Positions 264 through 25,674 of a stretch of 34,823 nucleotides of DNA are shown here, piece after piece. The notes below the pieces were generated by a model that did not search any database, was not told the DNA's origin, and saw only the letters and a list, made by a program, of their open reading frames with translations. The stretch lies in the IMG/VR virus record IMGVR_UViG_3300032085_001143, positions 1-34,823 of that record. One strand, written 5' to 3'. This DNA comes from a virus. Every line of letters begins with the position of its first letter. Positions within the stretch are counted from its first letter, which is position 1. A program made the position numbers and the translations under genes.

Positions 264-3200
264 TTATAATCCTTTAAACTTGCTTTTCTTTTTTCTTTTT
301 TTTCTGCTATCTTTTTGCTTTTGTTCTTTTACCTGACTTTTGATATTTTCCATTTTTTCGTTTTCAATATCTAAATTGTATTGACTCCAACCGAAGAACA
401 TCATAATTCTCTCCATAGCCTCGTGATCTTTATTAAACGCTTGTCTAACATTTTGAACTTTGTTGTAAACTTTGTTCAAAGGTAAGTTAACAACTTCAAA
501 GTAACTTGTTACAGCAGGCCATATAGGATTATCTATATCAGATAACTCCATGTGTTCAATTACATCTTTGTTATAGTTAAGTGTTTTTTCAGCGTTAACT
601 ATTTTTCTAGCCTTGATTCCTAAAGGTGGAGATACGTCTAACGCGGCTCTTAAAGTAGCACTTTCGTCTTTGTTATAAGTTTTTCCTCTTTCTTTAGTCC
701 AAGCTATGGCCACGTTTTTAACCGTAGCGACAATGGCGCCGTAAATACCAGTACCTCTTAAAACACTATCAATAGCGCCGTTAACAGCGTACTCATACTT
801 TCTATTTCTGCTTTTTATTTCTTTTTCAGTTTCTTCTTCATCATCGTCAAGCATAGCCATAAACAAAGCTGTCTGCAAAGCGTAGAATACCATATTTTGT
901 ATACCTATATAGTAAGTTAATCTAGCGATATTAGATATATCGCTTTGTAGTTGAGTTTCGTTAGGCTTTGTTATCCTTCTATTTTTAAGATCTAAAAATG
1001 CTTTTTTACCTAATCTGTTAAACTGAGATGTTACGTTTTGAAACGATAGTATAAACTTACCTACAGCTGATCTTTGTTGAGCTGAAATCATGTCTTCTCT
1101 TGCGGACTGCTGTGTAGATTGAGTTAACTCGTTAAAATCGTTCCAAGCAGCTTCTTCGGCTTGTTTTTGCGTTAAACCTTCTTTTACATACTTATTTATT
1201 CTATTTCTATAATAAGTGGCGCCACCAGTAGATATTGCAATACTATCACCAATTTGCGTAGGAGTAAAACCTAAAGCTAACAGTTTCTTAATAACCATAC
1301 GCATTGGAAACCTAGAGTTAGATACGGTTTGAACAAGCTCAGCACCGTTAACGTCTGTTTGTATGCCACCACGCCTTTGCTTCATCATGTCTGAGTTAAA
1401 TATATAAGCCCAGTCTTTCCAATACTGCTTTTGATTAGCAAAAGCTTTAGCCATTGCAAGCAAGTTATTTTCAGCAAAGTTCATGTAGTTTACAATAGAC
1501 ATTTGCTGTAGTAAAGAGGATCTCATATTGAAGAACATAACCGTACCAACCGCTCCGTTTATAAAGTTAACAAAAGCATTTACGATTTTATTCTGTCCTT
1601 GAGGTCTACGCTCTCCAGTTCTTATAGAGTAAAGCATGTCTTCTATAGACTCTCTAACACTTCTACCATAGGCAGCTTCTATTTTGTTTAAGTTTTTGTT
1701 TGAAAATATTTCGTTAGCATTTTCAACAAACTCAGTGAAGTATTGACCTCTACCAACTTTACCAGTAGCATCTAGCAAATCAGATCTTATATCACCAGCG
1801 TCCCATGACTCTGTAGGCGGTATGTAACCATCAACTCTTGATATGATCTCTACGGCATTGGCGTAAACTTTTAATACTGGATCAAGGTTTACATATTCGT
1901 TAAGCATATCTTGATCTTTTTTGCTTAAACCTGGAATATCATAACCGTTCTTAGTCCATATATAAACTCTTATAGCATCTTCAAAAGTAAAATCACCGTC
2001 GGCTGTTTTCTTTTTTAGCTTGTTTTTTATATCTTTATAGTTTTTGTTTAAAGCTTTAAAATCGTTTGCTATAGATTGTTTAGCAGCATCTAGCTCTCTA
2101 TAAGCTCTATTTAAAGGTCTTATTAGCGCAGCTTCAAAAAAGTCTCTATGTCTATTACCTTCAGCACCTTTACCTAAGAAGTTGTATATCAAACCAACAA
2201 AGTCTTCGTGTGAAGGTGGTATAAAAAATCTAAACTTGCCCTTATCGGCTCCACGTTTTCTAGCTTTTATATCGCTAAATCTTTTCTCAGCCTCTATACC
2301 AGTAACAGTTTCTAATATACTGTTAAACTCTTGATCTAAACTTCTACTAAATTGAACCTTAGCCTGTACTGATTTACCTTTAACATCTAACTGATCAAAT
2401 ATGTTCTGCACAGCTTCAACGTTTGGTAACGCGTCATCTACAAAGTACATGTCATTATAACCTTCCGCGTACTTTTCTAGCATCCATAAAGCTTTCGCTT
2501 CACCTTTACTGTTACCTAAACCTGTTATGTTTTCAAAAGGTATATTGATACCTTGTGTTTTAAGCCACTCATGTATCGGTTGTGCGGCTTCTTGCATACG
2601 AGCCGTAAGTACAAACACGTTGTCAGGACCATATTTTTTTATTTGATTTTTCATCTTTTGCAAAAGTGGACCTTCTTTACCACCTCTTACATTTACAAAA
2701 TCTGAAAAGTCAAACTCCCAACCTTTGTCTGCGTATATTGGACCGTCTATAGGCCACTTATCAGACGGTATTCTAACTGTTTCACCGTCTTTAGTTGCTG
2801 TAACAAAGTTTTCGCCGTCTATAATTAGCGTTTCGTCAAAGTCAAACGTAGACATACCTCTTGAAGGTCTTTGCTCTCTAGAAAACTTTATAGCTTGCTT
2901 TAGCGTTCTAGAGTTTTGTATTTTTACTTGAGACTGCAGCTCTTGACTTACAGCTTGAGCAAACTTTTTTGCTTGAGACTTGTTTAACAAGTTGAAGTCT
3001 GACTTATTAAACTTGCTACCATCTATTCTAGGGGACATTCTAAACTTAACGCTGTTTCCAGCCATCGGAAGCCTAGCTACTAGCTGAATTTTATTTTTTC
3101 CAGCTTCTAATGTTGGTACACCAAGCTTACTTGCTATTGCAGCGCTTAAATTGTCAACGTTGTCATTACCAGTCTTCATACGATAAAACTGTTGGCCTAC

Positions 3201-6200
3201 TTGTATAAAGCCTTGAGGCATGTTAGCGTAATTACCGTGTGCGTAATGCCATGTTAAATAATCTAAGTCTACTTCTATGCTAGTACCGTACTTGTGCTTA
3301 TTATCTCTTAAAAATTTAACTTGCTCGTTTGATAAAGCATCTTTTGTTAACGGCATACCAGCATTTTCTAAATCTTGCTTTATTTGAGAATACACCTCTT
3401 TTAACTGATCACCAATTATATCGTCAAACAAGTCGCCGTCTTCGTTTCTAATATCGTTTTTATTACTAAAGTCTAGCTTACCGCTTAAAAACGCTGCTAT
3501 AGTTTGAGAAACACCTCTAGCTTTATCAAGCTTAGACTCTACGCCAACAAGCAAATTACCAAGACCTAAGTAAACGTCACCTTTTCCTCTTAGTGATTCT
3601 AATCCAGTTCCTTTTAAAAACGACTCTACAGTAGTTCTTATACTGTCTTCTAGAGCCATGCCTATATTTATTCTTTTACCCGCCCTGCTAGATTTAACTA
3701 TTCTTTTAACTAAGTCTAGCTTTAGCTTGGGATCTTTAGTATCACCGTAGTTTTCTTTGCCATACGCGTTATGGAAATCGTATATTATTCTAGCGGCAAT
3801 AGCTTTATCTTCATTGGAGTGCTCTCTTTTACCTACTGTTTTGTCTTTCTTCCTGTGGTATATAGGAACTTTTAGTTTATACTTAGGCTTTTTACCTTTC
3901 TCATATATTACCTCAACTATGTCGCCTATAGTAACTTTATCACTTGCTAAATTTTCTAGTATATCAAGAGTGTTGTCTGCTAAACCATCAACAACTTGCT
4001 CTCTTGAGAACATTATAGTTGCATCTCTACCTATAGCTGAAGCAAGCTCTTGTATTTCTGCTTGATAATTATCAGACTCATCTATACGCTCTGAAACTTC
4101 TTCAGACTTTCTAGCCTGCATCGTAGCGTCTTTAACTAAAGATACAGCCATAGCTTTTGCAATACCATCTTTTCTAGTACCTTTCAAACCTGATCTAGCT
4201 CCAGTTTCAGGATTTATAGCTGGTTGGTCAGCATAATCTACTAGCTCTGCTTCAGTAGGTATTCTACGCTTGTATAAGTTTACAGCTTGACCTTTGTCTA
4301 TTTTATTTAAAGCGTCTGGAGGTAACAAGTCTTTTCTAACGGCATCTTGAACGTCTTGTTTAGAAGTTAGTTGTCTTACAAACGTAGTAAATATTCTTTG
4401 GTTCTCAGGTACTTTTCTTTCCATTTGAACAAGATCTGCTACAGATATTCCACTAGGCCCAAATATAGCTTCTCTATATTCTTTTAAATTTTTAATATAG
4501 TCTTTTGTGCCTAAGAAGTTTTTTAAAGGCTTGAACGCATCGCTAGTAAGTCCTTTTGAAAAGTACTCATCATGCAGCATATTTTTTATAGCTTTAGCTC
4601 TTTGTGTAGCGTCTTTTATGTTCAGCGTTTTTCTATAAGCCAACACTAAACTTTTCTTAGTAGCGTCAAGCAGTTTGGTATACATATCACCGCCAGTTTC
4701 AAAGCCAAGTATTTTTCTAAGCTTAGAAGTTTTTTCTGCAGTTTCAGTTCTTTTTCTCATTTGACCTGCTACAGATAAATCTTCTGTTTCTAGCGCTTCT
4801 AGCTCAGCATCTGTCTCTGCAGCAACTTGTACTTTAACTTCACCCTCTTGTGTTGTCTCGCCTATGTCTCTAGCTCTACCAGCAGCTGTTTGATCAACCT
4901 TATATTCTCTGTTGTATACATTACCAGCTTTGTTAGCTATTTGAGAGTTTAAATAACCAAAGAAATCGTCGTTTTGCTCAGGGTTAAAATTCTTAGCATG
5001 CGAAGTTAATTCAGAGTATACTTTATCTACAAAGTCTTTAGGTACGCTTTCGCCTTTAAACTTAGAAGCTATTAAATTATCAAGATAACCTTCGCTTTTT
5101 ATTTTGTTATATATGTCGTCAAAGCTAGCGTCAAACAAAAGCTTACCAAGACCTTTTTGTCTAAAGTTATCACCTACTAAACCTTCTTGTCCCAGACGTT
5201 GAACTTCAGACTGAGCCGTAGCTCTTTGCTCAGCAGTCATAGAAGGTTTAACAGTTTTATCACCTGTCAAATCTTGCTGCTCAGCAAACTCCATTATTTC
5301 TTTTCTATATATACCTTCTTTTGAGTCAGCTACTATAGCGTCTAAAAAAGCTTTTGTATCTGCCCCTGTTTCAAAAGATATTTTTTTAAACTCAGTGTTT
5401 TTGTTGAAAAATTTAGAGAAAAACTGTCCAACTTTAGATAAGTCTAATTGTTCTTGTTTAGATAACTGAGCATAAAAGTTTATGTACTCTTCACCATATT
5501 CTTTGAACTCTTTGTCGGAGCCATCTTCATTTTTTCTATACTTACCAGCATCTAGCTTTTTGTCTAATCTTTTTCTTTGAGATCTAGTAAGCGTACTTAA
5601 AAAATCTTTAACTATTTTTTCTCCTTCTTTGCTAAGGTTACCACTACCATCGTCTTCTTGAAGCGTAGACTTTAGCAAGCCATGTAAAACTTCATGCGTA
5701 CCTGTTGCAGTAGCGTTTCTTTCCGCAGCTACCTGAGCGTTTACTAATAACTTGCCTCCAACCTTTAGGCCGTCTATAGTATATTTTCTACCTGACTTGT
5801 CTTGAGTAGCATTTATAAAGTCTTGTTCTGTTCCACCTTGTGCTAATATTTCTGCTTTCAAAGCAGCTAAAAAGTCTTCTTCTGTTTTGTAAACCTCTTG
5901 CTCTAAACCTTTCATAGCACTAACAAGCTGACCGCTAGCGTCAAGATCTTGCTGTAGCTTAGACATATTAGCGTCGTTCTTTATAGTAGTGATGCCTTTG
6001 TTATATCTAGACATCTTTTCGTTAAACGCCTCCATACCAGCGTCAAACTGCTCTTTTGTTATAACACCTTTTTTATATAAAGATTTTAAATCTTTTATTT
6101 CTTTTCTAGTGTTTCTTAAGTTGTCTACAAGATTGTTTAATCCGTCTTCTTGATTTTTACTTAAATAGTTCGATAAATCTTTATTAGATTCTAAATACTC

Positions 6201-7673
6201 TTTTAGCTCTGTTTCTTCAATTTGTATTAAGTCTTCGTATTTCTTTTTTCTTCTCTTGCTTGTAGATCTAGCTTTAGCGTCAGCGTATGCGGCTATTCTA
6301 TTTATTCTTTCATTTATAAAAGCGCTACCACTTTCGTCATTTCTTAGTGCTGCGTTTATCTTGCTACCTCCAGCAGACACAGCGGTACCACCAATTAAAC
6401 CGGCAAAGTATTGGTCCCAAGCTTCTTCAGTTGTCATGTAGCTTCCAACATCTTTAATAGCGTCTTCAAAAGACATACCTTTACCTATGTTCTTGTTCAT
6501 GCGCTCAGAAAGTCCTTGGCCATATTCTGTAAGGCCTTCTTTGTTTCCAGTTACAAATAAAGAAAAAGCTTTTTTACCTTTAAAAGATCTTTTCATTATT
6601 TCTTTTGTCAATCCTTTGTAGCCAGCTCTTTCTAAAGCATATCCAAGGGTTGCGAAGGCTGCGGGAGTAGCTAATTCATCTTGACCGCTAGCTATAAGCT
6701 TTTGAAAAGCCTCGGGATCATCTTCACCGTATATTGATTTAGCTTTTTCAAGATTATAATCATGATACGACATCCCACCCATTTGAGCAGCCATTGAAAT
6801 ACCGCCAGTTAGCCAACCCGCAATAAGCTGTTCCCCTGAGTCTTGAATAAAATTTGCAGATTCTAAAATAACGTCTCCAACTCTTCCGTTTTTTACAGCG
6901 TCAAGAAACCCTTTACTATCCGTGATCTTATTTTTAGACATTTTGGCAGTTAGCTCTAAGCTTTTTTTATGCCTGTCAGCCATAGCTTTAGCATAATTAC
7001 TTCTAACAGTTTCAGCTGAACCATCGTCATTTATAAAAACTTGCTCAGCAGGCATAAAGTTTTTTTGCAAGCCTCTTTCGCCTTCAGCGTATCTAGGCGT
7101 ATTTTGCATTTTTCTTACAAGCTCGTAATACTTTTTATTTTCAACAGCGTCGTGACCATCTCTTTTATAAGCTTCGCGATTAAAAGTTACAATCTCTCCT
7201 GTTTCAGCATCTCTAAGACCAGTCTTTCTACCGTCTATATCATGGTCTTTATCAAAGGCTGACAAGAAAAAATCAGCTGCTTGTTCGCCTGCCATAAACT
7301 CTATATAAGATCCTAAGCCTTCAGTCATTTGACTGGCTATTTGTTTCCAACGAGTAGGTCTATTTTCGTACAATCTTGAAGCGCCTTCTAAAAAACCTAC
7401 TTCATCTTCAGCCTGCTCTTCTGATATGTCGATGTCATCAAAACCGCTAAAAGTTTTTACGTTAGATGGGCTACTTGGAGATCCCAATGAAGTATTTACC
7501 GATGCTGATCCCATACTTCCTACGCTGGGAGTTATCGGCCCCGCAGTTGCATCCATCACAGCGGCGCCTTCTTGCTTTTCCAATGGCTGAGCATTTGGAA
7601 ACTTTGATAAAAACTCGTCTAATCTGTCTGGAGCAAATTGATATACTTGCCCATTAACTTCGTATTGTAACAT
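264..7673 (-). CDS. Giant multidomain (polyvalent-type) internal virion/ejection protein, 2469 aa
   Basis: This is the last gene of the ejection block and is probably carried in the virion, like T7 gp16 or crAss-like cargo proteins. Seen in order: a disordered Gly/Ser/Pro-rich stretch near residues 40-75; hydrophobic helices near 275-310; long charged helices near 480-600; a zinc-peptidase motif, H660-E-V-L-H664, with a possible third ligand at E728 or E729; a helical region near 835-930 faintly like sigma-70 region 2; an F-S-R motif at 1222-1224. A HAD-like phosphatase domain then has D1611/D1613 in FDFDETL, T1690 in FVLTAR and D1746-D1747 in FVDDALPN. It is bracketed by F-S-R at 1597-1599 and 1775-1777. 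The rest (about 1800-2440) is helical with hydrophobic patches and resembles the LPD38-type domain of polyvalent proteins. The C-terminus is very Lys-rich. One base separates it from the upstream gene. Internal location and enzymatic activity are inferred. Confidence 0.85.
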   Translation of the reverse strand: MLQYEVNGQVYQFAPDRLDEFLSKFPNAQPLEKQEGAAVMDATAGPITPSVGSMGSASVNTSLGSPSSPSNVKTFSGFDDIDISEEQAEDEVGFLEGASRLYENRPTRWKQIASQMTEGLGSYIEFMAGEQAADFFLSAFDKDHDIDGRKTGLRDAETGEIVTFNREAYKRDGHDAVENKKYYELVRKMQNTPRYAEGERGLQKNFMPAEQVFINDDGSAETVRSNYAKAMADRHKKSLELTAKMSKNKITDSKGFLDAVKNGRVGDVILESANFIQDSGEQLIAGWLTGGISMAAQMGGMSYHDYNLEKAKSIYGEDDPEAFQKLIASGQDELATPAAFATLGYALERAGYKGLTKEIMKRSFKGKKAFSLFVTGNKEGLTEYGQGLSERMNKNIGKGMSFEDAIKDVGSYMTTEEAWDQYFAGLIGGTAVSAGGSKINAALRNDESGSAFINERINRIAAYADAKARSTSKRRKKKYEDLIQIEETELKEYLESNKDLSNYLSKNQEDGLNNLVDNLRNTRKEIKDLKSLYKKGVITKEQFDAGMEAFNEKMSRYNKGITTIKNDANMSKLQQDLDASGQLVSAMKGLEQEVYKTEEDFLAALKAEILAQGGTEQDFINATQDKSGRKYTIDGLKVGGKLLVNAQVAAERNATATGTHEVLHGLLKSTLQEDDGSGNLSKEGEKIVKDFLSTLTRSQRKRLDKKLDAGKYRKNEDGSDKEFKEYGEEYINFYAQLSKQEQLDLSKVGQFFSKFFNKNTEFKKISFETGADTKAFLDAIVADSKEGIYRKEIMEFAEQQDLTGDKTVKPSMTAEQRATAQSEVQRLGQEGLVGDNFRQKGLGKLLFDASFDDIYNKIKSEGYLDNLIASKFKGESVPKDFVDKVYSELTSHAKNFNPEQNDDFFGYLNSQIANKAGNVYNREYKVDQTAAGRARDIGETTQEGEVKVQVAAETDAELEALETEDLSVAGQMRKRTETAEKTSKLRKILGFETGGDMYTKLLDATKKSLVLAYRKTLNIKDATQRAKAIKNMLHDEYFSKGLTSDAFKPLKNFLGTKDYIKNLKEYREAIFGPSGISVADLVQMERKVPENQRIFTTFVRQLTSKQDVQDAVRKDLLPPDALNKIDKGQAVNLYKRRIPTEAELVDYADQPAINPETGARSGLKGTRKDGIAKAMAVSLVKDATMQARKSEEVSERIDESDNYQAEIQELASAIGRDATIMFSREQVVDGLADNTLDILENLASDKVTIGDIVEVIYEKGKKPKYKLKVPIYHRKKDKTVGKREHSNEDKAIAARIIYDFHNAYGKENYGDTKDPKLKLDLVKRIVKSSRAGKRINIGMALEDSIRTTVESFLKGTGLESLRGKGDVYLGLGNLLVGVESKLDKARGVSQTIAAFLSGKLDFSNKNDIRNEDGDLFDDIIGDQLKEVYSQIKQDLENAGMPLTKDALSNEQVKFLRDNKHKYGTSIEVDLDYLTWHYAHGNYANMPQGFIQVGQQFYRMKTGNDNVDNLSAAIASKLGVPTLEAGKNKIQLVARLPMAGNSVKFRMSPRIDGSKFNKSDFNLLNKSQAKKFAQAVSQELQSQVKIQNSRTLKQAIKFSREQRPSRGMSTFDFDETLIIDGENFVTATKDGETVRIPSDKWPIDGPIYADKGWEFDFSDFVNVRGGKEGPLLQKMKNQIKKYGPDNVFVLTARMQEAAQPIHEWLKTQGINIPFENITGLGNSKGEAKALWMLEKYAEGYNDMYFVDDALPNVEAVQNIFDQLDVKGKSVQAKVQFSRSLDQEFNSILETVTGIEAEKRFSDIKARKRGADKGKFRFFIPPSHEDFVGLIYNFLGKGAEGNRHRDFFEAALIRPLNRAYRELDAAKQSIANDFKALNKNYKDIKNKLKKKTADGDFTFEDAIRVYIWTKNGYDIPGLSKKDQDMLNEYVNLDPVLKVYANAVEIISRVDGYIPPTESWDAGDIRSDLLDATGKVGRGQYFTEFVENANEIFSNKNLNKIEAAYGRSVRESIEDMLYSIRTGERRPQGQNKIVNAFVNFINGAVGTVMFFNMRSSLLQQMSIVNYMNFAENNLLAMAKAFANQKQYWKDWAYIFNSDMMKQRRGGIQTDVNGAELVQTVSNSRFPMRMVIKKLLALGFTPTQIGDSIAISTGGATYYRNRINKYVKEGLTQKQAEEAAWNDFNELTQSTQQSAREDMISAQQRSAVGKFILSFQNVTSQFNRLGKKAFLDLKNRRITKPNETQLQSDISNIARLTYYIGIQNMVFYALQTALFMAMLDDDEEETEKEIKSRNRKYEYAVNGAIDSVLRGTGIYGAIVATVKNVAIAWTKERGKTYNKDESATLRAALDVSPPLGIKARKIVNAEKTLNYNKDVIEHMELSDIDNPIWPAVTSYFEVVNLPLNKVYNKVQNVRQAFNKDHEAMERIMMFFGWSQYNLDIENEKMENIKSQVKEQKQKDSRKKRKKKSKFKGL

Positions 7674-7674
7674 A

Positions 7675-9204
7675 TTAAAAGTCTGTTTGAATTTTAACTG
7701 GTTGTCCTTCGCTATTATACGTGTAACCAGGTCTTAGATCGGCTATTAAATCTTTCTCTTCTTTTGGTGGTGCGGGTGGTTTAGGTACTACATAACCTAC
7801 AGTTTCGTCATAGCCAAAGTTAGCAGCTAACTGCTCTTGTGTAGTAGCTTCGTACTTTCCAGTAGTAGTGTTATAATAAAAGTAATTACCGTTTTCTTTT
7901 TTCCAGTTTATACCGTTCCAAGCTGTCTGTGCTGGAATATTTTTTTCTTCACTAAGCAGTTGCTTAACGCCAAAGTCTATTTTATCTTTTGGAACGTACT
8001 GGTTAGCTATATAGTATTTATCTGAACCTGAAGCTTGGTTTTGCTTTTTGCCATATATGCTGTTACCCATCTGCCACTGTGATCTACCTTCACCATCAAT
8101 TAAAAAGTCTATATAAGCTTGTTTAGTAGCTGAAGGATCGTAATTAGGGTGTGTCTTATCTGTTAGTACGTTTACAAATTTAGAAGCGTCTTTTGAAAAG
8201 TCTGTGGCGTCTATATCGCCATCACCATCTACGTCTAACGATTTATCTGTAAACTGAAATTTGCTATTTAGCAAGCCAAACATCTGAGCAGACTCTTTAG
8301 TATCAGCTGAAGTTAAAGCATCGTAAAATGATTTTTGTTGCGTGCCAAACTTTTCTCTAAGCATTGAACCTACTGTTCTTTCGTTTATTAAATCGTTTAA
8401 ATTATTTCTTAATTGACTTTGCGTGTTTTCGTCCCAAGCCCCACCGCTTTTACCAGTATTATACATCATTTGAGTAAGCTTAGCCGCTTGTTCTTTAGTC
8501 TTAGGATCTTTCATAACCATAAGGTTTTTTACAAACTCAATATCACCCTGCATAGGTTTACCGTACTTGTTGTTTTTTACATTGCCATCTTTGTCTAAAA
8601 AACTAATAATTTCGTTACCGCTTTCGTCAAAGTCTATTTTAGTACTACCTATAACTTCGCCTTTAGCATTTTTAACTTCACCACCACCTGCAAAAAACGT
8701 GCTAAAAAAGTTATTAGAGTCTTCACCCATCATAACGTGATCAAGCCCGCCTTCTATAAAAGAAGATTTAGCTTCTTGCATTACGTTATCTATTTGAGCT
8801 AAATTAGCGTATATCTTATCTTCTTTACGTCGGTTAGCTCTCATTTGCTCTCTACGATCTTTAGATAAAAAACCCGTTTGACTTCTTATTTCTTCACGCT
8901 CTTGCTTTATGTTTTCTAGCTGTTGCTGTAAAGTTTCAGTTTGACCCTCAAAATACTTGCCGCCAGCTTGTATTAACTCATCTTGTTTTTTAGCCTCAGC
9001 TATAGCCGTACCAGCCGCTGCGCCTGCTGCTTGAGCTGCTCTTGCAATACCTGCGCCAAGTTGACTCATGCCAACAGCGTAAGACTGTGCTATATTATTA
9101 AATATTCCTGATAAATCTTTTGGTACACCAGCATACGCCGCCCTTGTTGCGGCGCCAACTAATGTGGCGTCAGCTTTACCACCAAATCCTTGCATCTTTG
9201 CCAT
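7675..9204 (-). CDS. Putative internal virion protein, 509 aa, with dockerin/EF-hand-like calcium loop
   Basis: I do not recognise a full-length family. The N-terminus (about residues 40-75) is Ala/Gly-rich and helical (for example AAQAAGAAAGTAIAEAKK), which would suit membrane insertion or bundle packing. Residues 85-150 are Gln/Glu/Arg-rich and predicted coiled coil. Residues 324-335 read DVDGDGDIDATD, with Asp at loop positions 1, 3, 5, 9 and 12 and Gly at 6. This is the classical EF-hand/dockerin calcium loop, with the final Asp replacing Glu as dockerins allow. A Pro-rich piece near 475-485 precedes a short tail. Position is the main functional clue: it lies between a coiled-coil S74 protein and the giant multidomain protein, with one base on either side, the slot taken by gene 15 in T7. 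A role in the ejection apparatus is therefore inferred. No catalytic motif is visible. Confidence 0.8.
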   Translation of the reverse strand: MAKMQGFGGKADATLVGAATRAAYAGVPKDLSGIFNNIAQSYAVGMSQLGAGIARAAQAAGAAAGTAIAEAKKQDELIQAGGKYFEGQTETLQQQLENIKQEREEIRSQTGFLSKDRREQMRANRRKEDKIYANLAQIDNVMQEAKSSFIEGGLDHVMMGEDSNNFFSTFFAGGGEVKNAKGEVIGSTKIDFDESGNEIISFLDKDGNVKNNKYGKPMQGDIEFVKNLMVMKDPKTKEQAAKLTQMMYNTGKSGGAWDENTQSQLRNNLNDLINERTVGSMLREKFGTQQKSFYDALTSADTKESAQMFGLLNSKFQFTDKSLDVDGDGDIDATDFSKDASKFVNVLTDKTHPNYDPSATKQAYIDFLIDGEGRSQWQMGNSIYGKKQNQASGSDKYYIANQYVPKDKIDFGVKQLLSEEKNIPAQTAWNGINWKKENGNYFYYNTTTGKYEATTQEQLAANFGYDETVGYVVPKPPAPPKEEKDLIADLRPGYTYNSEGQPVKIQTDF

Positions 9205-9205
9205 A

Positions 9206-10171
9206 TTAATTTATTTTTTTAAAGTCAACGTCTAGCATTGAGTAGTTAACCATCTCGTACCCGTCAGGGTGCATTATAACGGCTTCTCTCGGCACTTCGT
9301 CAGACATAACACCTTGATGTACTCCAGAGCCATGCTTAGCGTCTATATATTCAAAATTATAAACAGGTATACCGCTAGATGAGTTAAACACGTGTTCTAT
9401 GTTTTTCTTTAATTTTCTATCTGATGCAGCGGCAGCTCCAGCGCCTGAAGCAACACCACCGATTATTTGACCAAACATGCCCATACGAGCAGCGTGCATT
9501 TGAGCACCCATACCTATAGCAGCCATTTGGTTACCAAAAGCAGCTTGAACGCCTGCGTTAGCACCGCCGTAATCACCAGCTGACATACCTAATAATGTAG
9601 ACTGTCTACTAATTTCTGCGCCTTGCAGCATTGCAGCACCACCTCTTTCTGCCATATCAGCAGAGGCAGCGCCTTGAGCTACGGCTTGCTGTATTTGCAT
9701 ATCCGTTTGACGCTGCATTTGATCTATTTGTTGACCAGCTTGAGCAGCCATCATTGCGTTTTGTCTTTGCTGTTGAGCTATATCTACAGAAGCTTGTCTA
9801 GCAGCCATAACACCTTGATTAGCTAAGGTTTGTGCTAAACCAGCTATACCTGAAGTACCAGCAGCACCTGTCAACGCTTGTAATATGTCAGCTCTTTGCT
9901 GTGCTGATTGCTCCATCTGAAAGTCTGCTGCAGCTGTGGAAACTTGAAGCTCTTCAAATCTATTTTCCATGCCTTCATACGCGTTCTTAAGATCAGCGTA
10001 ATAGTTTTGCATGTTATCGTAAGGATTAAAAAACTCCATTTGCTCATAATCAGCTTGTCTAGCTTCATACTTTTGCATAGCTTCTCTTTGCAGCTGTGTA
10101 TTGTAGTCGAACTGCCTGTCAGCCTGCGCTTGAGCTTGTCTTTGTATTTGTCTGTTTCTTCTGCCACCCAT
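9206..10171 (-). CDS. Putative internal virion protein with C-terminal S74 (endosialidase chaperone) domain, 321 aa
   Basis: Residues 1-245 are Gln/Ala/Met-rich and strongly helical, typical of a coiled-coil core protein. From residue 250 comes a Peptidase_S74 intramolecular chaperone domain: SDRKLKKNI with Ser250, Asp251 and Lys255, then PVYNFEYID and HQGVMSDEVP. The Ser to Lys spacing of five equals the known autocleavage pair of endosialidase chaperones (Ser911/Lys916), so self-release of the last 72 residues just before Ser250 is plausible. The start chosen is the ATG at 10171-10169 (protein begins MGGRRN). It leaves a one-base gap after the upstream stop, like neighbouring junctions. An in-frame ATG at 10213 would add 14 residues and overlap the upstream gene by 41 bases. 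S74 domains normally end tail spikes and fibres, so the combination with a coiled-coil, presumably internal, protein is unusual. By order it matches T7 gene 14. Confidence 0.85.
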   Translation of the reverse strand: MGGRRNRQIQRQAQAQADRQFDYNTQLQREAMQKYEARQADYEQMEFFNPYDNMQNYYADLKNAYEGMENRFEELQVSTAAADFQMEQSAQQRADILQALTGAAGTSGIAGLAQTLANQGVMAARQASVDIAQQQRQNAMMAAQAGQQIDQMQRQTDMQIQQAVAQGAASADMAERGGAAMLQGAEISRQSTLLGMSAGDYGGANAGVQAAFGNQMAAIGMGAQMHAARMGMFGQIIGGVASGAGAAAASDRKLKKNIEHVFNSSSGIPVYNFEYIDAKHGSGVHQGVMSDEVPREAVIMHPDGYEMVNYSMLDVDFKKIN

Positions 10172-10172
10172 A

Positions 10173-10589
10173 TTATATATATTTAAATGCTTCGTAAGAT
10201 GGTCTACTTTCATCTACAAACCATCGTAAATCTTTATGTGTTTGTCTTAAATATTTATCGCCACATACAGTGAACATGAACTTCACGCCCTGTTGCTTAG
10301 CTTTGAACTCTGTGTTTGTTATGAATAATCTCATTAGCTTCTTTCTGTTTGGCCCTTTGTAATTTGGATTTGAAACTATCCACGTTAAGTAACCTATAGG
10401 TGCATTACTACCTAAAAACAAAAAACCCATAAACACAGGTGTATTTTCGTGCTCTATTACGTAACAGTTTTCATCGTTAGGTAATATTTCTTTTTCTATG
10501 CCTGTTTCATCTTTCCACCACCATTCCCACCATCTGCAGGCTTCTTCATAATCGCCTTGTTTAAACGATCTAAATACTACATTATCCAT
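10173..10589 (-). CDS. GNAT-like protein, T7 gp13-like position, 138 aa
   Basis: The small mixed alpha/beta protein begins with a GNAT-style strand and helix (VVFRSFKQGDYEEACRWW) and continues with strands like CYVIEHE and PVFMGFLFL, then a loop and helix (RKKLMRLFITNTEFKAKQQG). This is the order expected in N-acetyltransferase folds. A consensus acetyl-CoA loop of the Q/R-x-x-G-x-G/A type is not clearly present, so enzymatic activity is doubtful. Five tryptophans lie within residues 20-25 (WWEWWW), which is very rare. T7 gp13, a protein needed for assembly of the internal core, is also about this length, has been noted as acetyltransferase-like and sits in the same position ahead of three internal protein genes. 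The role in virion assembly is inferred from that order. A 41-base leader rich in A and T precedes the ATG. Confidence 0.75.
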   Translation of the reverse strand: MDNVVFRSFKQGDYEEACRWWEWWWKDETGIEKEILPNDENCYVIEHENTPVFMGFLFLGSNAPIGYLTWIVSNPNYKGPNRKKLMRLFITNTEFKAKQQGVKFMFTVCGDKYLRQTHKDLRWFVDESRPSYEAFKYI

Positions 10590-10984: not shown

Positions 10985-12261
10985 GATGCTGCTCCTGGTG
11001 TTATAAGTTTATCTAAGTCTATATTAATTATTGTATCAGAAGTAGGGTATGTGTTAATTCTTATAGAAGCCTCTAAAGTCATTTGCTTAAAAAATTTACT
11101 AAAAAATATATCGCCTCCAGTTTTTAAAGGTCCTATAGCAGAGCTTAAAGTTACTAAGCCTTGAGAAGAGCTAACTGTAGTTACAGCGCTAACTGTAGGA
11201 GATCCTGATATTCCAGGTCCACTAACAACAGCACCAGCACCTATAAAATAAGTTCCGTTTAAAGCTACCTTAGTGCTAGACGCGTCTGTGGCTTCATCAG
11301 CTATGCCGGCGTCTGCTCTAACAGTTTTAGACGTTGGGTTATTGATAGTTCCATCAGACAAAACAGGATCAACTCTAAGTCTAGCTTCAGATCTACCGTC
11401 TATTATAGCGCCAGACATTTGCTGTATAATGTCATTACCATAACCTCTAAAAGTTAAAGTAGCGCCATCACCAGCTGTTTGAGTTTGAGATAAGCTTATA
11501 GTGTTTGCTGCCGTGTCAATTGATTTTATATAAGGGTCAGTTCCATTTACACTTCCGCCGCTGATGTTTGTGAGTATTGCTTCAATAGCTAAACCCGAAA
11601 CGTCATCTAATTTTATTGTAAGAGAAGAACTTGCCGCGCCATCTACAGTAACTGTTTTTTCGTAATAATAAATTCTATCTTGTATTCCTTTTGCTAAAAG
11701 AGTTGGATAACCGATAGGTGTAGTGTTAGCACTTAATCCAAAAGCGTTGTCATCGTGGCTTCTGTTTACAAGATCGTAGTTGGCTTGAACAATTACTCCA
11801 GAGACAAGTCCAGGACTTCCTACGCTTGTTACGTCTGTTGCTGCTGGGCTGGAAGAGTATGTGTTAGCGTTATCAGTGGCAACTCTAAAAGTTACAGTGA
11901 CATCGTTTATTTGTGATATTTTTTTATTTATAACGTTTACAACTTTATTATTTAATAGTATTTCTGTATTATCGTCAGGAGTTAATAGTAAAACTTGATA
12001 GTCTGTAGTAGAGCTTGAAGGAAACCTAATATTACTAGAATATTCAGGTGATTTCATTTCGTGTACAAAATTACACTCTGGAGTAAAGCTAGACACAAAA
12101 GACTTTGTTGTAAAATTGTAAAAGCTTTGTGTTGATGTTTTTATTATTTGAAGCATAAATACGGCACCAACGTCTCCAGACACAGTAAACACCCTAGTTT
12201 GCGCAGCGGCTGCTAGATCACTAGTATCTATATCAAATAATGTAATTTGTTTTTTACTCAT
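10981..12261 (-). CDS. Putative tail-associated structural protein, 426 aa
   Basis: The whole chain is rich in Ser, Thr, Asp, Gly and Val and predicted to be nearly all beta, as in tail accessory and fibre proteins. The N-terminal 150 residues (starting MSKKQITLFDIDTSDLAAA) hold several regular strands. Residues 150-200 include a polar motif NRSHDDNAFGLSANTTPIG. Later regions have repeated short strands with Gly/Thr turns (ISGGSVNG, GAGAVVSGPGISGSP). The C-terminus returns to regular strands (TLEASIRINTYP). No enzymatic motif is seen. The first eight bases overlap the end of the giant nozzle gene, and its stop overlaps the next gene, so the three are probably translated in a coupled way. It could be a nozzle cap, a fibre adaptor or a decoration protein; I cannot decide from sequence. 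Confidence 0.75.
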   Translation of the reverse strand: MSKKQITLFDIDTSDLAAAAQTRVFTVSGDVGAVFMLQIIKTSTQSFYNFTTKSFVSSFTPECNFVHEMKSPEYSSNIRFPSSSTTDYQVLLLTPDDNTEILLNNKVVNVINKKISQINDVTVTFRVATDNANTYSSSPAATDVTSVGSPGLVSGVIVQANYDLVNRSHDDNAFGLSANTTPIGYPTLLAKGIQDRIYYYEKTVTVDGAASSSLTIKLDDVSGLAIEAILTNISGGSVNGTDPYIKSIDTAANTISLSQTQTAGDGATLTFRGYGNDIIQQMSGAIIDGRSEARLRVDPVLSDGTINNPTSKTVRADAGIADEATDASSTKVALNGTYFIGAGAVVSGPGISGSPTVSAVTTVSSSQGLVTLSSAIGPLKTGGDIFFSKFFKQMTLEASIRINTYPTSDTIINIDLDKLITPGAAS

Positions 12262-15200
12262 CTATAAATTCTTCATCATCACTACTAGTAGCAACGCTAT
12301 TAATAACACCTAATCCTTGCATAACAAAATCTTCGTATTGCAAATCACCTATATCTTTGCTCTGTATTCTTCCAAACCACTTACCTTCTTTCTTGCTAAA
12401 CTCAGATACCAAGCCTTTTTCTAAGTCTGTACTCAAGCTACTTACTGCCCAGCCATTTAAATCTGTCTCAAAACTAAATTTACCTGGATCAACAAAAGTT
12501 TTACCTTGTGTGCCTTCGTAAGATATGTTTCTAAATGATTTCACAGTTTCTGGAGCAACGTTAAATATAAAATTAACATTACTACTATATTGCTCTTCAT
12601 AGAAATTACATCTTAGTGCAAAGCGATGATTGTGCTCGTATAATCTTGCTTTGTCAAAAGTATAGTATTTTTTAGAAACACTAACACCATGCTCAGGTAT
12701 AAAAGACTTAAAACTAGTCCAACCTTTTGCTGTCTCACTAAACGAAACTGTTTTTGAAACGTAATTTAGCAGTTGTCTCTGTAAAAACATGTTATCAATG
12801 CTTCCGTTAACAACACCTGTTTTACTTCTAACAACTAAAGTGTCAGCTAAATATCCAAGACCTAAGTCAACTTCGTCTTGCCCAATAGTAACTTGTTGGC
12901 TAAACGTGCCAGTTCCACCGTCGTTTATTTCTAATATAAAGCCTTGACCAAATTTATTAAAGTAGTAGATTTCAACAACACCTGTTAAATTAGTGTGAGA
13001 AAAACTTATATCATACGTATCACCTTTTGTAAATTGACCTACAACTTGTTCGACTTGTATTCCTTCTATTACGCTAGAGGTCGGAGCGTCATTAAACGTT
13101 ATAGCATCTAAATCATCATCAAAAACAATGTAATCGAAAGTGCTTTGATTAAAGCCGCTAAACGACCAACTGTCTATGCTATTACCTGTAAAATATTGAG
13201 TCGCGTCCGTTAAAGAAATACCGTTTATTTTACCTACAAAACCGTTTGCGTCATCTGGATAAAAAGCAACTTTTCCATCGTCAGTTGATCCTGTTGTGTC
13301 GTTTAAAATAACTTCTGTAGTATTTGCTATGGCTGTAGTTGAAACTTCTTCACTGTTAAAAACTCTAGTAACAGTTACGTTAGAAACGTTATCAAAATTA
13401 CCTCTTACAGTGTAAATACCAGGCTCAGTTACGTTCGTAACGCCAAAACCATAGAAAGTGCCAGTTATATTTGGTTGAGTAACGTAAGCGTTTACAGCGC
13501 CTTGTATACCGCCAGGATAATCAGGATTTTCTTCTACCGTAAACTTAAAGGCATAGCCTTGAGCAGTTACTAAAGGATTCCAGTTAGAAGGTATAGCCCA
13601 TGATTGAGCAAAGTAATATCCGTTGCTTCCGGTAAAATTTTCTTCAAAACTACTATTAGGCACGCAGTAAAAATTAGCGCTGTCGCCACCGTAGTATATT
13701 TCAGGACTTTCGTACTGATAACCTGTTCCGTCAAGCTCAGTTGTTATCAAATGCGTTAACGCGTGTGGAACTTGATAGTTAGCGCTGGGCGTATGAAAAT
13801 CAGTAAATTCACCGCTAGTATTTTGCTCTGTTATATCTATAACATCTATTCTGTTTACTAAACCTCTTCTACCGTAAATTTGAAGAACCGTTTGATCGTC
13901 TCCGTAGTTTGAGTGAGCTGCTGAATCATATTGAAATATTGTTCTAGCAACAGTTCTACCCGCAGTGTAATACTCACCTCCGGCGGCGCCGGCTGTAATA
14001 GTTGGCTTGCATACGTATGTTTTCGTAGAATTAGTATTAGAGCTTCCGCCAATAGAACCAAAGGTTCCTTTAGGATAATTAACAAAGCCAGGACTGGTTT
14101 CGCTGTAGTGAGAAAGTCCGTACGCAGTCGTACCACCGGCAGATATAATAGCGTCATTTACACCACTATATCCAGCCGCTACAGCATCAGCGTGTATTAT
14201 ATCACCGTTAGCATTTAAAATATCAGAAGAGCCATAACCTGTTTGAATAACATCAGCGCTAATACCACCTACAAAAGCAATAGAACCCTCTATGTTCCAC
14301 TCTCCCGCAGTTCCTCTAGATGCCGGTTGGTTTCCAGGATCAACATCTTCATATTCCACGTCTAGCAGATACCAATGGCCATCTTGAAATTCACCATAAC
14401 CACTTTGCCTTATATACACGCTCGTAGCAGTTCCGTCTGTTTTATGGGCGTCTACATATATTTTGCTATCTGTATTTTCTGCATGAACAGTATAACCCAA
14501 ATCACTTTGTGGTGTAGGCAAGGTACCGCTTCCAGAGTTATTTGTTCCAGTTAAACTATAACTATTTGGATTACCGTTATTGTATTGCTGGTAAGTTGTC
14601 ACACCGTTGTTTGTGCCAGTGTAGTATGTAATACCGTGCTCTGTTACATAGCTACCAGGGTTTGGCGCCCCAAAACTAGGGTTTATCCAAGGAGCCGCCA
14701 CGCCGCTACCATCATCTAATGTCCACCTGGCATTATCTTTATAATAAACTTCAGACCAAGCAGGTATTGTGGTAGAAGGTACAGCTGGAACTTCTGCTTC
14801 AGCATCAATAACACCTACAAATTCACCTGTGCCTACTTGAGTGGTAACGCCCTCTTCCGCTATTGCAGGCCCACCTGGATTTACTAACTCCCTTACTTTT
14901 TCAAATTTAATACTAGTAAGCCAAACTTCTAAATCGTCAACACCCCAGCCAGATGGAGCGGCATCATCGTCAAGATCGGTGTTTGGATCAACAAACCATT
15001 GAGGCCTTACGCCAAACTTAGTGAGTATTGGCTCTGTAGAAATATTATTGTTTACATAGTTAGCCGTATAGTCGCTGCTAGACTTATTAGGATCTTTAAA
15101 CATTATGTAAGTAATAAACTCTCTTTCAGTATTGTCTGGGGCGCTATTAATTGAAGCACTAGGCATAACTGTAGCAGAGCTTCTAAAACCGTAGTTTCTA

Positions 15201-18200
15201 TATGTACCAGTTGTAGATGTTTGAATACTGCTAGCAGGCTCACTTGTTATATCACCCAATGTGCTACCCATGTTGTCTACGTCCATAACATAATCTGACA
15301 TTCCAGCCCCACTATTATTAGCACCTATTAAGCTCATGTAGAATTTTAAATAACCTGTTAAAAAGTTATCATTAGTGTAGTTGGCTGAAGCTTTGAATTT
15401 TATTGTTATTTTAACTACTTCTGTTTCAAAAATAGTCATATTAGTAGCTGCTGGATACGAAGGTCCCTGAGGTGTAGTGTTGTTTAATACTTGCGGCGCA
15501 ACAGCTGTATTAGGTATTCCACTAATTGTTCCACTAGCATAACTAACAGGAATATTCATATAAGGCCTCATTTGGCTTGCTTCAGATACAAAAGGACTCC
15601 AACCAGAAAATCCAGGAGAATAAGAGCTATTGTCCCAAGTCGTGTAGCTAAAACCTACTGTGCTTGTAACACCAGTTGTAGCGCCAGCTGCAACGCTCCA
15701 ATCAGCAGCCCAAAGATCACCAGTACCATTGTTAGTTGAAACTGTAGGATTACTAGCGGCATTGTTAGAGGCAGAAGTAGTATTCCACTCGTATATTACA
15801 GTACCATTAGACCAATCACTTGACGTGGTAAACGTAGCATCTGTTTCTTGTATAGCTTCTTGTGTAACAGTATAAACATCTTCTAAAACTTCCGTACCTG
15901 GATCACCTTCAATAGGTGCTACGTACTGTTGAAAATATCCTTGAGGTATTTCTGGCCAATTAGTCACAACTACCACAGAGTCAAGCCTGTTATTGGAAAT
16001 TAAATTTAAATTGTTGTATTCACTATTACCATCAGCACTTAAAAAGTTTTGTTGAACTAAATTATTGTTATAGTTTGTTCCAACTATATTATTACCGTTT
16101 AACACTCTTTCTACTGGATCAGAAGTTAAACTAGATATTCCAACACCATCTTCGTCAAACTCAGAGTTTTGTATTAAGTTCTCTTCAACTCTTTCTTTTA
16201 GCGTTAAGTTGTAAACGCCTGTGTATTGATCGTAAGTTCCTAATAAAGCTTGATTTTTAGGTAAGTTATCTCTAAACCAATCTTTCATGCCGATGTCGGA
16301 TATAGGCGTTATGCCGTCCATAGATAACCTTAAAACTGCACCTCTAGCCTTATCAGCAAAATAAGCTCTGTAAGAATCTGAAGCAAAAGACTCAGGGTTT
16401 GTAGATATACCGTAATCACCAACAAACGGCACTGCTTGACCTAAAACATTTTCAGAAGCCGTTAGCTGTGGGTTGCCATCAGCATTAAATACAGCGTCTT
16501 TATTTGCAAGTATCTTGACAACTCTATCTTCACAAAAAGATACTAGATCTGTTGATCTTGAAAAAAGCTTCTGTATACTGCCGTAGGTAGGATTTATATC
16601 TTTTGTTATGTTTTGAGCTTGAATAAATTGATTTAAATTATTTACTTTAGAGTTTTGATTATATATTCCAGAGTATATTAAGCTATTAGTTAAAACCTCT
16701 TCTTTGTAAGGCTCGTCTGTAGTTGTTGATGCTTTAGCTCCATTAGTTATTTGCATAGTGTTAAAGTCATCTCTAATTCTATTAGACTCTACACCGTTTT
16801 CAAAACTAAAGCAATTAAACCAATTTAAACCTATAGGTGAATTGTCAGATATTTTTTGATTAATTATAAACCTTCGTTGTAATCCCACCGCATACTCTTC
16901 AAAATTCTGATTTGTGCTTTGACTTAAAATGTCAGCGGTTACGTAAGTACCATCGTCTCTTGTAAATCTAATCTTTCTACCACCATATTGTATTTCATCA
17001 CCGCTATCGTCATTTAAGTTTACTCCAGGTGTAATATATATATACGTGTAAGGATTGTTTGGGTCCTCTCTCCAGTAAAGTAGTTTTTGCGCATCTTCAG
17101 TGCCTTTCGTAGCGTCAGGAAAATCAGGAAAAGAAACTGTAGATTGTAAAGGCGCAAATGTTGATCTATTATTCTCTCTAATTTTTAAAGGTATATCATC
17201 ACTAGCTTCAAAATATATATTTAATTCTGGCAGCTGTCTAGGCTCTGTTTCCCAAATAGCAGAAACGCCAGTGTCTGCACCTGTGCTAGCTTGTGGAAAA
17301 GGCGAAACTATAGAAAAGTTTTTAGAAGTACTACTATCTATATCGCCATCGTTACCTGTAAATATATTTGTATTACTAACAGTGGGCTTTTTATCAAGCT
17401 CTAATATAAAACAAAGTCTTCTATTGTTAGCAGAGCCAAACTGTTGTATTTTATTTTTTAAATTTGTTTGTTTAGCGGCATTAGTTCTATCTATACCCCA
17501 CTCATGAGCTGCTTCTTCAACACTGTCTCCAGCCCAAACCCATTCTGTGCCGTTCCACTTTTTTCTAGCTCTCCAAGGCGTGTGATTGTACAGTTTAACA
17601 GATTTTTTATTTAGTATAGTATAAACCTCGCTGTCGCCTTGAAACTTTATTTTGCTATTTATATTAAGCTTTAGCAAAAAGCTATTTATAGAATCTGCTT
17701 GCTCGCTTGTAACACCGTAGGTGCAATCCCATTGTCTTTCGTGAAGTTCTAAATACTCTTCTTGTTTACCTGCAGAAGAATAGCCATAACCAAAAGTGTT
17801 TGGAACATTGTGCCCGGGCGGAGTCCATTTTCCAGAGATTAAATCATCAGACCACTCAAACGCTATGTGTCTAATGCCGCCGGGAAATACAGTGCTTGAG
17901 TAATCAGGCCTTGGGGTGATAGCTCCACCACCAAATATACCTTGCATCTGCCTTGATAAAGTAACATCTGCTAATTCTATTCCTGCATTATCATCTGTTA
18001 TTAAGTTGCTAAAGTTAATTGAGCCACTGTGCAAGTCTTTACCTGGAGCTAAGAAAGAAACGTGAATATAGTGCTTTCCTGTTTCATCGCCATAAAAACT
18101 TTTTAAATCATTTTTAGCTAAGCCATTAGAAGTAATATAAGAAAGTCCAGTCCATTGTTTACTTCCATTAACATGGCTGTTGTTAGTAGTGACAAAAGGC

Positions 18201-24171: not shown

Positions 24172-25674
24172 TTACTTCAATAACATGAAGTTGTTTGCAC
24201 CTTGAGTGATCAAACATCTCTCAGTAAGGAAGTGCATTTGCATCGCGTCAAGCGCAGAAGTAGCAGCACCTACTGAACCTGTTACCCAAGTCTTCATTCT
24301 ACGATCATCAGTTTGTGAAGCTCTGAAACGAACGTGTAAGAACGGACGTCTAATGCTAGCACCAACAGTTTGGTCGTATACAGAAGATGATCCAGCTGGA
24401 ATTACAACACCACGAATAGCGTTAGATCCTGCAGCAGCGTTAATACCACCACGTGTAGCTAAATCATTTAAGTAACGGAAGTCAGACTTATAGAAATCGT
24501 AAGATCCTCTACGGAAACCAGAGAAGCCTAAGTTCAATGCCATATCTTCAGAGTTGTCAAATACACCGTAAGACGTACCACCAGCTCCGTAAGAATTCAT
24601 AGAAGCTAACATATCGTCAATAGCTAGAGACGTAGCTCTGTTTAAGAAGAACATGTTTTCTTCAATAGCACCTTGCTTGTCAAACTCAGCTAAGATAGCA
24701 TCAAACTCTGCTAAGTCAGTAGCAGCGTTAACACCAGTGATACCAGAAGAAACATTACCTCTGCTTTCAATAGCAGCAAATAAACCTTCAGTACCAACAA
24801 CGTCACCATCAGCTCTTAAGTAGTCGTCAACTAAAAGCTCAACACTAGAAGCAGCGTCGCTGTTCTTTTCAGCTTCTAACATAGCCATTTCTACGTAGTC
24901 GGTGAAACGAGCACGAGTATCAGACTCAGCTTTTAAGTACCATAAGTAACCGTTAGCTCCAGCCTCAGATGAAACTTCAACCCAACCAACACGAGATGCA
25001 TCAGATCCTGATACTTCGTAGTAGTCTTTCATGATGATAGGCTTGTTAGAAAATGATTTGAACTGTGGTTCGTTAGCTGAGTGAGTTTCAGCAACTCTAG
25101 AAGCAGCATCGTTAGTATAGTAACCAGTAGCTTTTCCGTACTCAGAACCGTAAACTAAAATAGTAGTATCTTGAGTTCCGTTTTCAGTAGTAAAACCAGC
25201 GGCTTCTAAAGTAATAAAACCGTAAGGTCTTACTGTAATAACAGCAGAGCTTACATTAGAAACGATACATTTAGCTACAGCTTCAGAGTTTGCAACGATA
25301 ATAGTATCGTTCAATCTAATACCGTGACTAGCTATGCTATCAGTGTTACCGTCAATATCAGCTTCGATAGTGATAGTACCACCACCAGTAGCATCTTTGT
25401 CTTCAATGTGACCTTTGTAAGAAAGGTGTAATCTTGATTGCTCAGACCATACAACTTGGTCAGCTGTCATAGCCTCTTCAGCACCAACTTGAGCAAGGAA
25501 ACCAGAAATTGTACGAGGTCCAAAAACCTCAGCTTCTTTTTCCATCAAGTCTGGCACGTATTGTTGCGCCCAACCTTGTCCAGTTGAAGACGCTAAATCT
25601 AGATAATTTGTAGCTAGTGTTTGCTTTCTTGACGAAGGAACACTATTTAAATTATCACCTGCAGTAATTGCCAT
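24172..25674 (-). CDS. Major capsid protein, 500 aa
   Basis: Length, position after a scaffold-like gene and the following terminator all fit a major capsid protein of HK97 fold. Residues 25-75 hold the N-terminal arm (GQGWAQQYVPDLMEKEAEVF). Residues 90-210 are beta-rich with turns such as DIDGNTDSIASHG. Helical sections lie near 255-290 (RARFTDYVEMAMLEAEKN) and 320-365. The C-terminal part reads RPFLHVRFRASQTDDRRMKTWVTGSVGAA near 445-473, then LDAMQMHFLTERCLITQGAN, as I recall from capsid proteins of marine and crAss-like phages. About half of the Arg codons are CGT, and C-ending Phe and Tyr codons look frequent, suggesting selection for high expression. No propeptide cleavage site is evident. 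The leader before ATG is A/T-rich without a visible Shine-Dalgarno. Confidence 0.88.
   Translation of the reverse strand: MAITAGDNLNSVPSSRKQTLATNYLDLASSTGQGWAQQYVPDLMEKEAEVFGPRTISGFLAQVGAEEAMTADQVVWSEQSRLHLSYKGHIEDKDATGGGTITIEADIDGNTDSIASHGIRLNDTIIVANSEAVAKCIVSNVSSAVITVRPYGFITLEAAGFTTENGTQDTTILVYGSEYGKATGYYTNDAASRVAETHSANEPQFKSFSNKPIIMKDYYEVSGSDASRVGWVEVSSEAGANGYLWYLKAESDTRARFTDYVEMAMLEAEKNSDAASSVELLVDDYLRADGDVVGTEGLFAAIESRGNVSSGITGVNAATDLAEFDAILAEFDKQGAIEENMFFLNRATSLAIDDMLASMNSYGAGGTSYGVFDNSEDMALNLGFSGFRRGSYDFYKSDFRYLNDLATRGGINAAAGSNAIRGVVIPAGSSSVYDQTVGASIRRPFLHVRFRASQTDDRRMKTWVTGSVGAATSALDAMQMHFLTERCLITQGANNFMLLK

Follow-up and report, generated by a model that had tools for sequence, protein, structure and literature searches.

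The window analysed here, a complete virus record of 34,823 bases, encodes on its minus strand an Ala/Gln-rich helical protein that ends in a short S74 domain. With a probability of roughly one half, we take it to be the ejection protein that a short-tailed relative of the Flavobacterium and Cellulophaga podoviruses encodes at the gene-14 position, bearing a dispensable and probably self-cleaving C-terminal S74 cassette. Known S74/ICA domains belong to tail spikes, fibres and MyRF transcription factors, wherein trimerisation through a C-terminal helix gates the cut. The widespread short form described here keeps the catalytic dyad and has lost the helix, which raises the question of whether cleavage depends on a trimer and where such a trimer would then come from.

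Identity of the domain

The mechanical open reading frame (ORF) on the minus strand spans positions 9206-10213 (335 aa). Starting from the ATG at 10171, directly past the stop of the 138-aa upstream gene, it yields a 321-aa product whose stop codon occupies 9208-9206. In this translation, SDRKLK runs from Ser250 to Lys255 and HQGVM covers residues 285-289; the Ser250 codon (9424-9422) and the stop codon bound exactly the interval named in the preliminary description. The same description had assigned an S74 domain to a Gln/Ala-rich protein, and this assignment was borne out. Pfam PF13884 (Peptidase_S74, curated cut-off 22 bits) matched the last 82 residues alone at 24.1 bits (E 4.6e-5), above the cut-off, and the 335-aa ORF at 20.7 bits (E 5.2e-4), just below it. 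Furthermore, S250 and K255 supply the Ser-Lys catalytic pair with Lys at +5 that marks the functional class, and the N-terminal 249 residues comprise 20.9% Ala and 16.5% Gln. Across the record, the S74-bearing ORF was the sole PF13884 match (24 bits, E 1.9e-6), and PF13884 also matched 21 of 27 relatives at E≤1e-3. The window domain thus has in common with the PF13884/ICA domains of endoNF, GA-1 gp12, T5 pb1, MyRF and Bdellovibrio Bd3182 both the sequence family and the Ser-Lys(+5) pair, and it shares the conserved G-[VI]-[MI]-[AS]-x-E block with known S74/ICA domains.

At E≤10, a profile of six short domains retrieved three PDB sequences and no others, each an S74/ICA protein: the phage long tail fibre 6f45 (E 0.001), the GA-1 neck appendage 3gud (E 0.0097) and MyRF 7dc3 (E 0.015). 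A 27-member profile retrieved 6f45 alone (E 0.15), and a PDB search with the single window protein gave no match. Foldseek and VIA-align searches with the modelled domain returned no known S74 structure among the matches listed (best Z 3.7), and a fold search with the whole model returned generic long-helix proteins only; the absence of ICA structures from these fold searches is no evidence either way. Given these indecisive fold searches and the weak 27-member profile, the link to solved domains is carried by Pfam and by sequence scores of modest size.

Two PHROG families cover the architecture of helical part plus S74. The match to phrog_6121 (virion structural protein) spans residues 79-312 (E 1.3e-12) and that to phrog_4287 (DNA ejection protein) residues 88-315 (E 6.4e-4); the former family was matched by 31 of 31 family members and the latter by 3 of 31, the PHROG names being annotations and not tests. 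In the structure model of the 321-aa protein, the N-terminal 249 residues consist mostly of long helices, the last of which extends to residue 231 and is followed by a low-confidence Gly/Ala-rich linker, with no beta-helical stalk ahead of Ser250. The term coiled-coil protein, applied earlier, is loose wording for what the model displays, namely long helices.

Table 1 Features of the window, and of one related fusion, with the basis of each assignment
Feature	Position	Strand	Basis
S74-bearing protein gene, 321 aa	9206..10171	(-)	ATG start at 10171; phrog_6121 E 1.3e-12
Short S74 module, residues 250-321 and stop codon	9206..9424	(-)	PF13884 24.1 bits (last 82 residues); block mean pLDDT 81-96
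Ser250 codon, predicted nucleophile	9422..9424	(-)	Motif equivalence to MyRF S587 / endoNF S911; Ser in 147/147 domains
Predicted scissile bond, Ala249-Ser250	at Ser250 codon 9422..9424	(-)	
Lys255 codon, predicted dyad partner	9407..9409	(-)	Motif equivalence to MyRF K592 / endoNF K916; Lys in 147/147 domains
Flexible Gly/Ala-rich linker preceding the module, residues 224-249	9425..9502	(-)	Residues 224-248 pLDDT <50
Ala/Gln-rich helical N-terminal domain, residues 1-223	9503..10171	(-)	Modelled helices 3-43, 79-103, 109-231; family includes S74 carriers and S74-less members
138-aa gene immediately upstream, in the gene-13/IVPA position	10173..10589	(-)	Acetyltransferase-like only through annotation of counterparts
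509-aa gene directly downstream, gene-15 position	7675..9204	(-)	Position and size
2469-aa gene, gene-16 position	264..7673	(-)	Position and size
Virion structural protein	24172-25674	(-)	
Portal	26908-29334	(-)	
Terminase	29336-31549	(-)	
MW202675 fusion ORF	L378 4173-7730		

Gene position and annotated relatives

The minus strand carries a run of genes for terminase, portal and virion structural protein, followed by the S74-bearing gene. By terminase, the closest named phages are a Manatee Spring podovirus (62.7%) and the Flavobacterium elemo phages (about 46%), for which an open-literature search found nothing; the 87 records that matched in the terminase search include phages of Cellulophaga, Tenacibaculum and Maribacter. 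According to excerpts of one account (PMC8954989), podovirus ejection genes comprise a small gp14-like gene (181-240 aa), an adjoining gp15-like gene and then a larger gp16-like gene, and the window follows this small, medium and large pattern with products of 321, 509 and 2469 aa. Its gene order also resembles the gp13-gp14-gp15-gp16 order of T7. Placement in the T7 gene 14 slot, as proposed in the preliminary description, accordingly fits the gene position, and the resemblance to T7 gp14 is one of position alone: hhalign of the window protein against the single T7 gp14 sequence found no similarity (probability 0.03), and profile comparison with T7 gp13 and gp15 found none either. Without its S74 domain the protein has 249 aa, compared with 181-240 aa for the gp14-like size class in those excerpts (PMC8954989) and 196 aa for T7 gp14 itself. 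Gene order and the PHROG names, the two lines that bear on location, suggest that the protein is internal to the virion and is ejected.

Moreover, the gene position recurs across the family. Among the 66 loci with enough flank, out of 82 in the first family sets, 57 have two large same-strand genes directly downstream of the S74 gene, and the Ala+Gln share is at least 0.18 in 54 of these 57 proteins. In the motif-free set described below, searched from Ala/Gln-rich seeds, this share is at least 0.2 in 127 of the 136 distinct proteins (out of 147) whose start is complete and whose Ser was parsed, and below 0.15 in seven.

As for the neighbouring genes, the phiGT1 counterpart of the 138-aa gene is annotated as a RimL-like N-acetyltransferase; Pfam gave no match for the 138-aa product or two counterparts, leaving an acetyltransferase nature unconfirmed. 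The 509-aa protein had no match in the phage collection searched, and the 2469-aa protein had no convincing Pfam or PHROG family match. The 2469-aa ORF (264-7673, minus strand) contains an HExxH motif (GTHEVLHGLL), typical of metalloproteases, and a DxDxT motif (DFDETL), typical of HAD phosphatases, neither of which is backed by a family match. Upstream of the ejection genes lies a single 2864-aa ORF (12254-20848, minus strand), and many related contigs have similar segments ahead of the S74 protein, frequently divided among several ORFs. A 193-aa protein that adjoins the terminase (31781-32362, minus strand) matches PHROG 13932, 'co-chaperonin GroES' (E 2.7e-15); since it has no Pfam match, this name is doubtful.

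The preliminary description had suggested a new use of the domain in ejection proteins. This novelty does not hold, as S74 is already annotated on same-slot proteins of H6/1, RHph_I3_18 and phiGT1. At the same gene position, phiGT1_17 (Sulfitobacter phage phiGT1, MT584811), H6/1 gp17 (KX257490) and RHph_I3_18 EVC14_014 (MN988542) each have a short C-terminal S74, which their annotators named; in phiGT1 and RHph_I3_18 an acetyl/acyltransferase-like gene precedes the S74 gene, and two further large genes come after it in all three phages. The annotated order in phiGT1 is an acetyltransferase-like head assembly protein, the S74 protein and two injection proteins. The N-terminal parts of these three proteins have no detectable similarity to the window protein, of which 19-42%, mainly the S74 end, aligns to H6/1, RHph_I3_18, CRP-212 and Mwe-JY13. 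In GAP52, the S74 match falls inside a gene named DNA ejection protein; in Vibrio phage PVA1 (L092), it directly precedes and slightly overlaps a gene named DNA injection protein, which a second record describes as 'released from the phage upon host infection'. The S74-bearing frame of PVA1 is absent from the listed features of its record. Within the open literature, which leaves most subscription papers outside its scope, we found neither a study of S74 on ejection or internal virion proteins nor a reported cleavage of a short S74, and as far as these searches show, the shortness of the domain, the invariance of its motif and its on-off pattern are undescribed.

A short, invariant and dispensable module

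The window domain comprises 72 residues from Ser250 to the protein end, compared with 129 in the 3gud chain and a reported 133 in T5 pb1. Unlike known S74/ICA domains, it has neither a C-terminal coiled coil nor a preceding beta-helix, and no helix of coiled-coil length follows the core in either structure model. Excerpts of PMC8326128 state that MyRF is cut before Ser587, that the cut requires the pair Ser587-Lys592 (equivalent to endoNF Ser911-Lys916) and that it requires trimerisation, driven mainly by the C-terminal alpha4 coiled coil. In the excerpts of PMC8326128 and PMC3742443, cleavage of known S74 domains is described only in trimers; Bdellovibrio Bd3182 undergoes the same type of self-cut, which is blocked by S782A (PMC10769870, in excerpt). 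The window protein and its relatives stop about where the MyRF-type trimerising helix would start, which argues against the earlier proposal that the S74 domain drives trimerisation.

This short form recurs. Among 16 named-phage proteins hand-chosen from search matches, the ten in the ejection position comprise one fusion and nine with a Ser-to-end length of 62-83 aa, and this length was 89-110 aa in all six annotated as tail fibre or tail protein, whose tails are LLIEAIKEL-like or otherwise charged and helix-like. The S/K match among these 16 was forced by the script pattern and is no evidence for the dyad. In the motif-free scans, the length was 60-79 residues in 140 of 140 parsed, complete proteins, and in the first family set it was 61-85 aa in 75 of 82; the other seven comprise two with a misplaced Ser (L019, L037), two contig-end cuts (L027, L061) and three longer tails (L029, L073, L088). 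The short form also ends a few Ala/Gln-poor proteins, some near terminase genes, and is not exclusive to ejection proteins.

The search pattern of the first family scan contained the motif; therefore, that set was left out of the dyad count, and the scan was repeated with alignments from which the motif had been cut. The best 80 loci of each of two motif-free scans gave 160 loci and 147 distinct domains of moderate diversity (107 clusters at 90% identity, 27 at 70% and 6 at 60%). Ser, Asp and Lys(+5) were kept in all 147 of these short domains, in a similarity ranking that under-samples decayed copies. The script parsed the triad in 141, and the remaining six show the same residues in the output, two of them having lost the intervening Leu and kept Ser, Asp and Lys. 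Across the 27 representatives at 70% identity, the positions conserved at 100% were Ser250, Asp251, Lys255, Gly267, Tyr271, Gly287, Glu292, Val308 and Tyr310; most other domain positions vary, and the residue preceding Ser is highly variable (Phe, Ala, Gly, Met, Lys, Pro and others). A phage search with a Bacteroidota-type domain found nothing further.

The N-terminal domain forms a family of 31 sequences at E<1e-4 in a profile search of a given set. One homologue, Elemovirus gp20 (NC_055854, 202 aa; phmmer E 4.6e-6 within a small set), belongs to this family and occupies the same gene position; unlike the window protein, it has no S74. In two scans with N-terminal core sequences, which were blind to S74 and in each of which three proteins were cut by contig ends, S74 was carried by 5 of 32 and 5 of 77 complete proteins, so that the S74-less form (27/32 and 72/77) is the commoner in both family samples. 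In the 77-protein scan, 65 of the 72 S74-less proteins end 140-199 aa past the core start, and the Ser lies 140-179 aa past it in 5/5 carriers, with the pattern misplacing the Ser of one (L358); most S74-less members thus end about where carriers have the Ser.

On a quick-search tree of 84 N-domains (33 carriers and 51 S74-less), the distribution is explained most simply by 19 changes, at least six of which are forced by well-supported branches, counts that are blind to gain versus loss. Of the S74-less A7 proteins, every third entered the tree. Proteins truncated at a contig end were excluded from it, as were L255 and L290, which duplicate L015 and L012, and the carriers L261, L002, L020, L027, L045 and L061. 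At the level of close relatives, the carrier L257 and the S74-less L259 are 91.9% identical over 4.5 kb on one side and 92.1% over 3.5 kb on the other, and the aligned flanks enclose 229 nt in L257 versus 28 nt in L259. The four S74-less contigs of this cluster, possibly fragments, have no other S74 match. Given such near-identical S74-less relatives and a majority without the module, the module is dispensable in nature, and a need for chaperoning is not supported, these homologues doing without the domain.

In two further cases, S74 lies inside a long ORF past the Ala/Gln-rich part (1185 aa in MW202675 and 1489 aa in L073), with 909 and 1236 residues, respectively, from Ser to the end. Because they have common sequence around the junction, they were counted as one lineage; the L073 fusion might contain a sequencing error. 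The fusions look like a union of the gp14-position protein and the ejection protein that follows it, and a cut would free the gp14-like part.

Self-cleavage and competing readings

Collectively, the strict Ser-Asp-Lys conservation, the free gain or loss of the whole module and a product resembling the S74-less proteins favour self-cleavage at Ala249-Ser250, to which we give about even odds. The short S74 would keep the catalytic half, namely Ser250, Asp251, Lys255 and the conserved Tyr, Gly and Glu positions, without the trimerising C-terminal helix. After the protein has folded or been incorporated into the internal core, Lys255 would probably activate Ser250 for attack on the Ala249-Ser250 bond. 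The cut would free an 8.2-kDa fragment, and the 249-aa remainder would have roughly the natural length of the S74-less homologues; the computed masses are 26.6 and 8.2 kDa, from a full length of about 34.8 kDa. Core assembly or the long upstream helices, both guesses, might substitute for the trimer as the trigger. The cassette would then be a temporary aid to solubility or assembly timing and not a working part. A domain retained for its chemistry as long as it is present would account for strict Ser-Asp-Lys conservation alongside free gain and loss. As counterpoints, a structural role could explain the conservation of Ser, Asp and Lys, given that Tyr271, Gly287, Glu292, Val308 and Tyr310 are equally invariant, the residue ahead of Ser is highly variable, and by analogy with known S74s, described as cutting only as trimers, the absence of the trimerising helix speaks against a cut. 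If the domain does cleave, it would add a processing step to the little-understood assembly of podoviral ejection proteins, for which near-identical phage pairs with and without the cassette are ready-made controls. More tentatively, a portable self-cutting S74 could be a feature of gp14-type proteins in many short-tailed phages, licensed by the core, leaving an S74-less-like product and, in one lineage, splitting a fused gp14-gp15-like polyprotein.

The main rival to self-cleavage is a non-cleaving C-terminal cap or adaptor, in which the short S74 remains attached to the ejection protein and touches a neighbouring component such as a core partner, the portal or a scaffold. We regard this as possible, at clearly lower odds. 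The dyad is equalled in invariance by several non-catalytic positions, and with neither trimer helix nor beta-helix stalk, the known cleavage trigger is absent. Nevertheless, a mere cap would not obviously need the Ser-Lys pair kept in 147/147 domains, and since near-identical phages do without the domain, such a contact is not essential.

The canonical chaperone role advanced in the preliminary description, in which S74 trimerises the helix bundle and is then released, appears unlikely. The family match and dyad agree with it, and the long upstream helices could in principle replace the missing downstream coiled coil; however, the C-terminal helix is lacking (62-83 aa versus 89-110 aa in fibre proteins), there is no beta-helix to fold, homologues manage without the domain, and the post-ejection T7 gp14 channel is reported to be hexameric in excerpts of PMC8954989. 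Less probable still is a mobile passenger, carried between fibre and ejection genes by recombination and with next to no effect on fitness where it arrives. Patchy presence on the tree and the occurrence of the domain on some Ala/Gln-poor proteins (the 7/136 below 0.15) would suit such a passenger, but Ser, Asp, Lys and further positions stay invariant throughout the 107 clusters at 90% identity, which indicates selection and counts against it, and the hosts are non-random, 127/136 being Ala/Gln-rich in searches seeded from such proteins. It is very improbable that the protein is a tail fibre or spike on the outside of the virion whose S74 domain is an ordinary one. In favour, the short-S74 protein of Octadecabacter DB virus 2 is annotated as tail spike protein/chaperone, and PHROG matches among the 31 A2 members include two to a tail-fibre family and one to a long-tail-fibre family; against it, the model has no beta-structure ahead of the domain, two large same-strand genes follow directly in 57/66 loci, and phiGT1 has separate tail fibre and spike genes further on.

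A role of the module in capping a membrane-spanning segment was rejected on hydropathy: the maximum over the last 45 residues before Ser averages 0.66, versus 0.90 in the interior, and reaches 1.2 or more in 3 of 25 proteins. In the N-part of the window protein, no 19-residue stretch exceeds a Kyte-Doolittle mean of 1.17. Its N-terminus is a hydrophilic, Arg/Gln-rich stretch, and many family members (L032, L012, L019 and others) have a strongly hydrophobic N-terminal segment with a 19-residue Kyte-Doolittle mean of up to 2.25.
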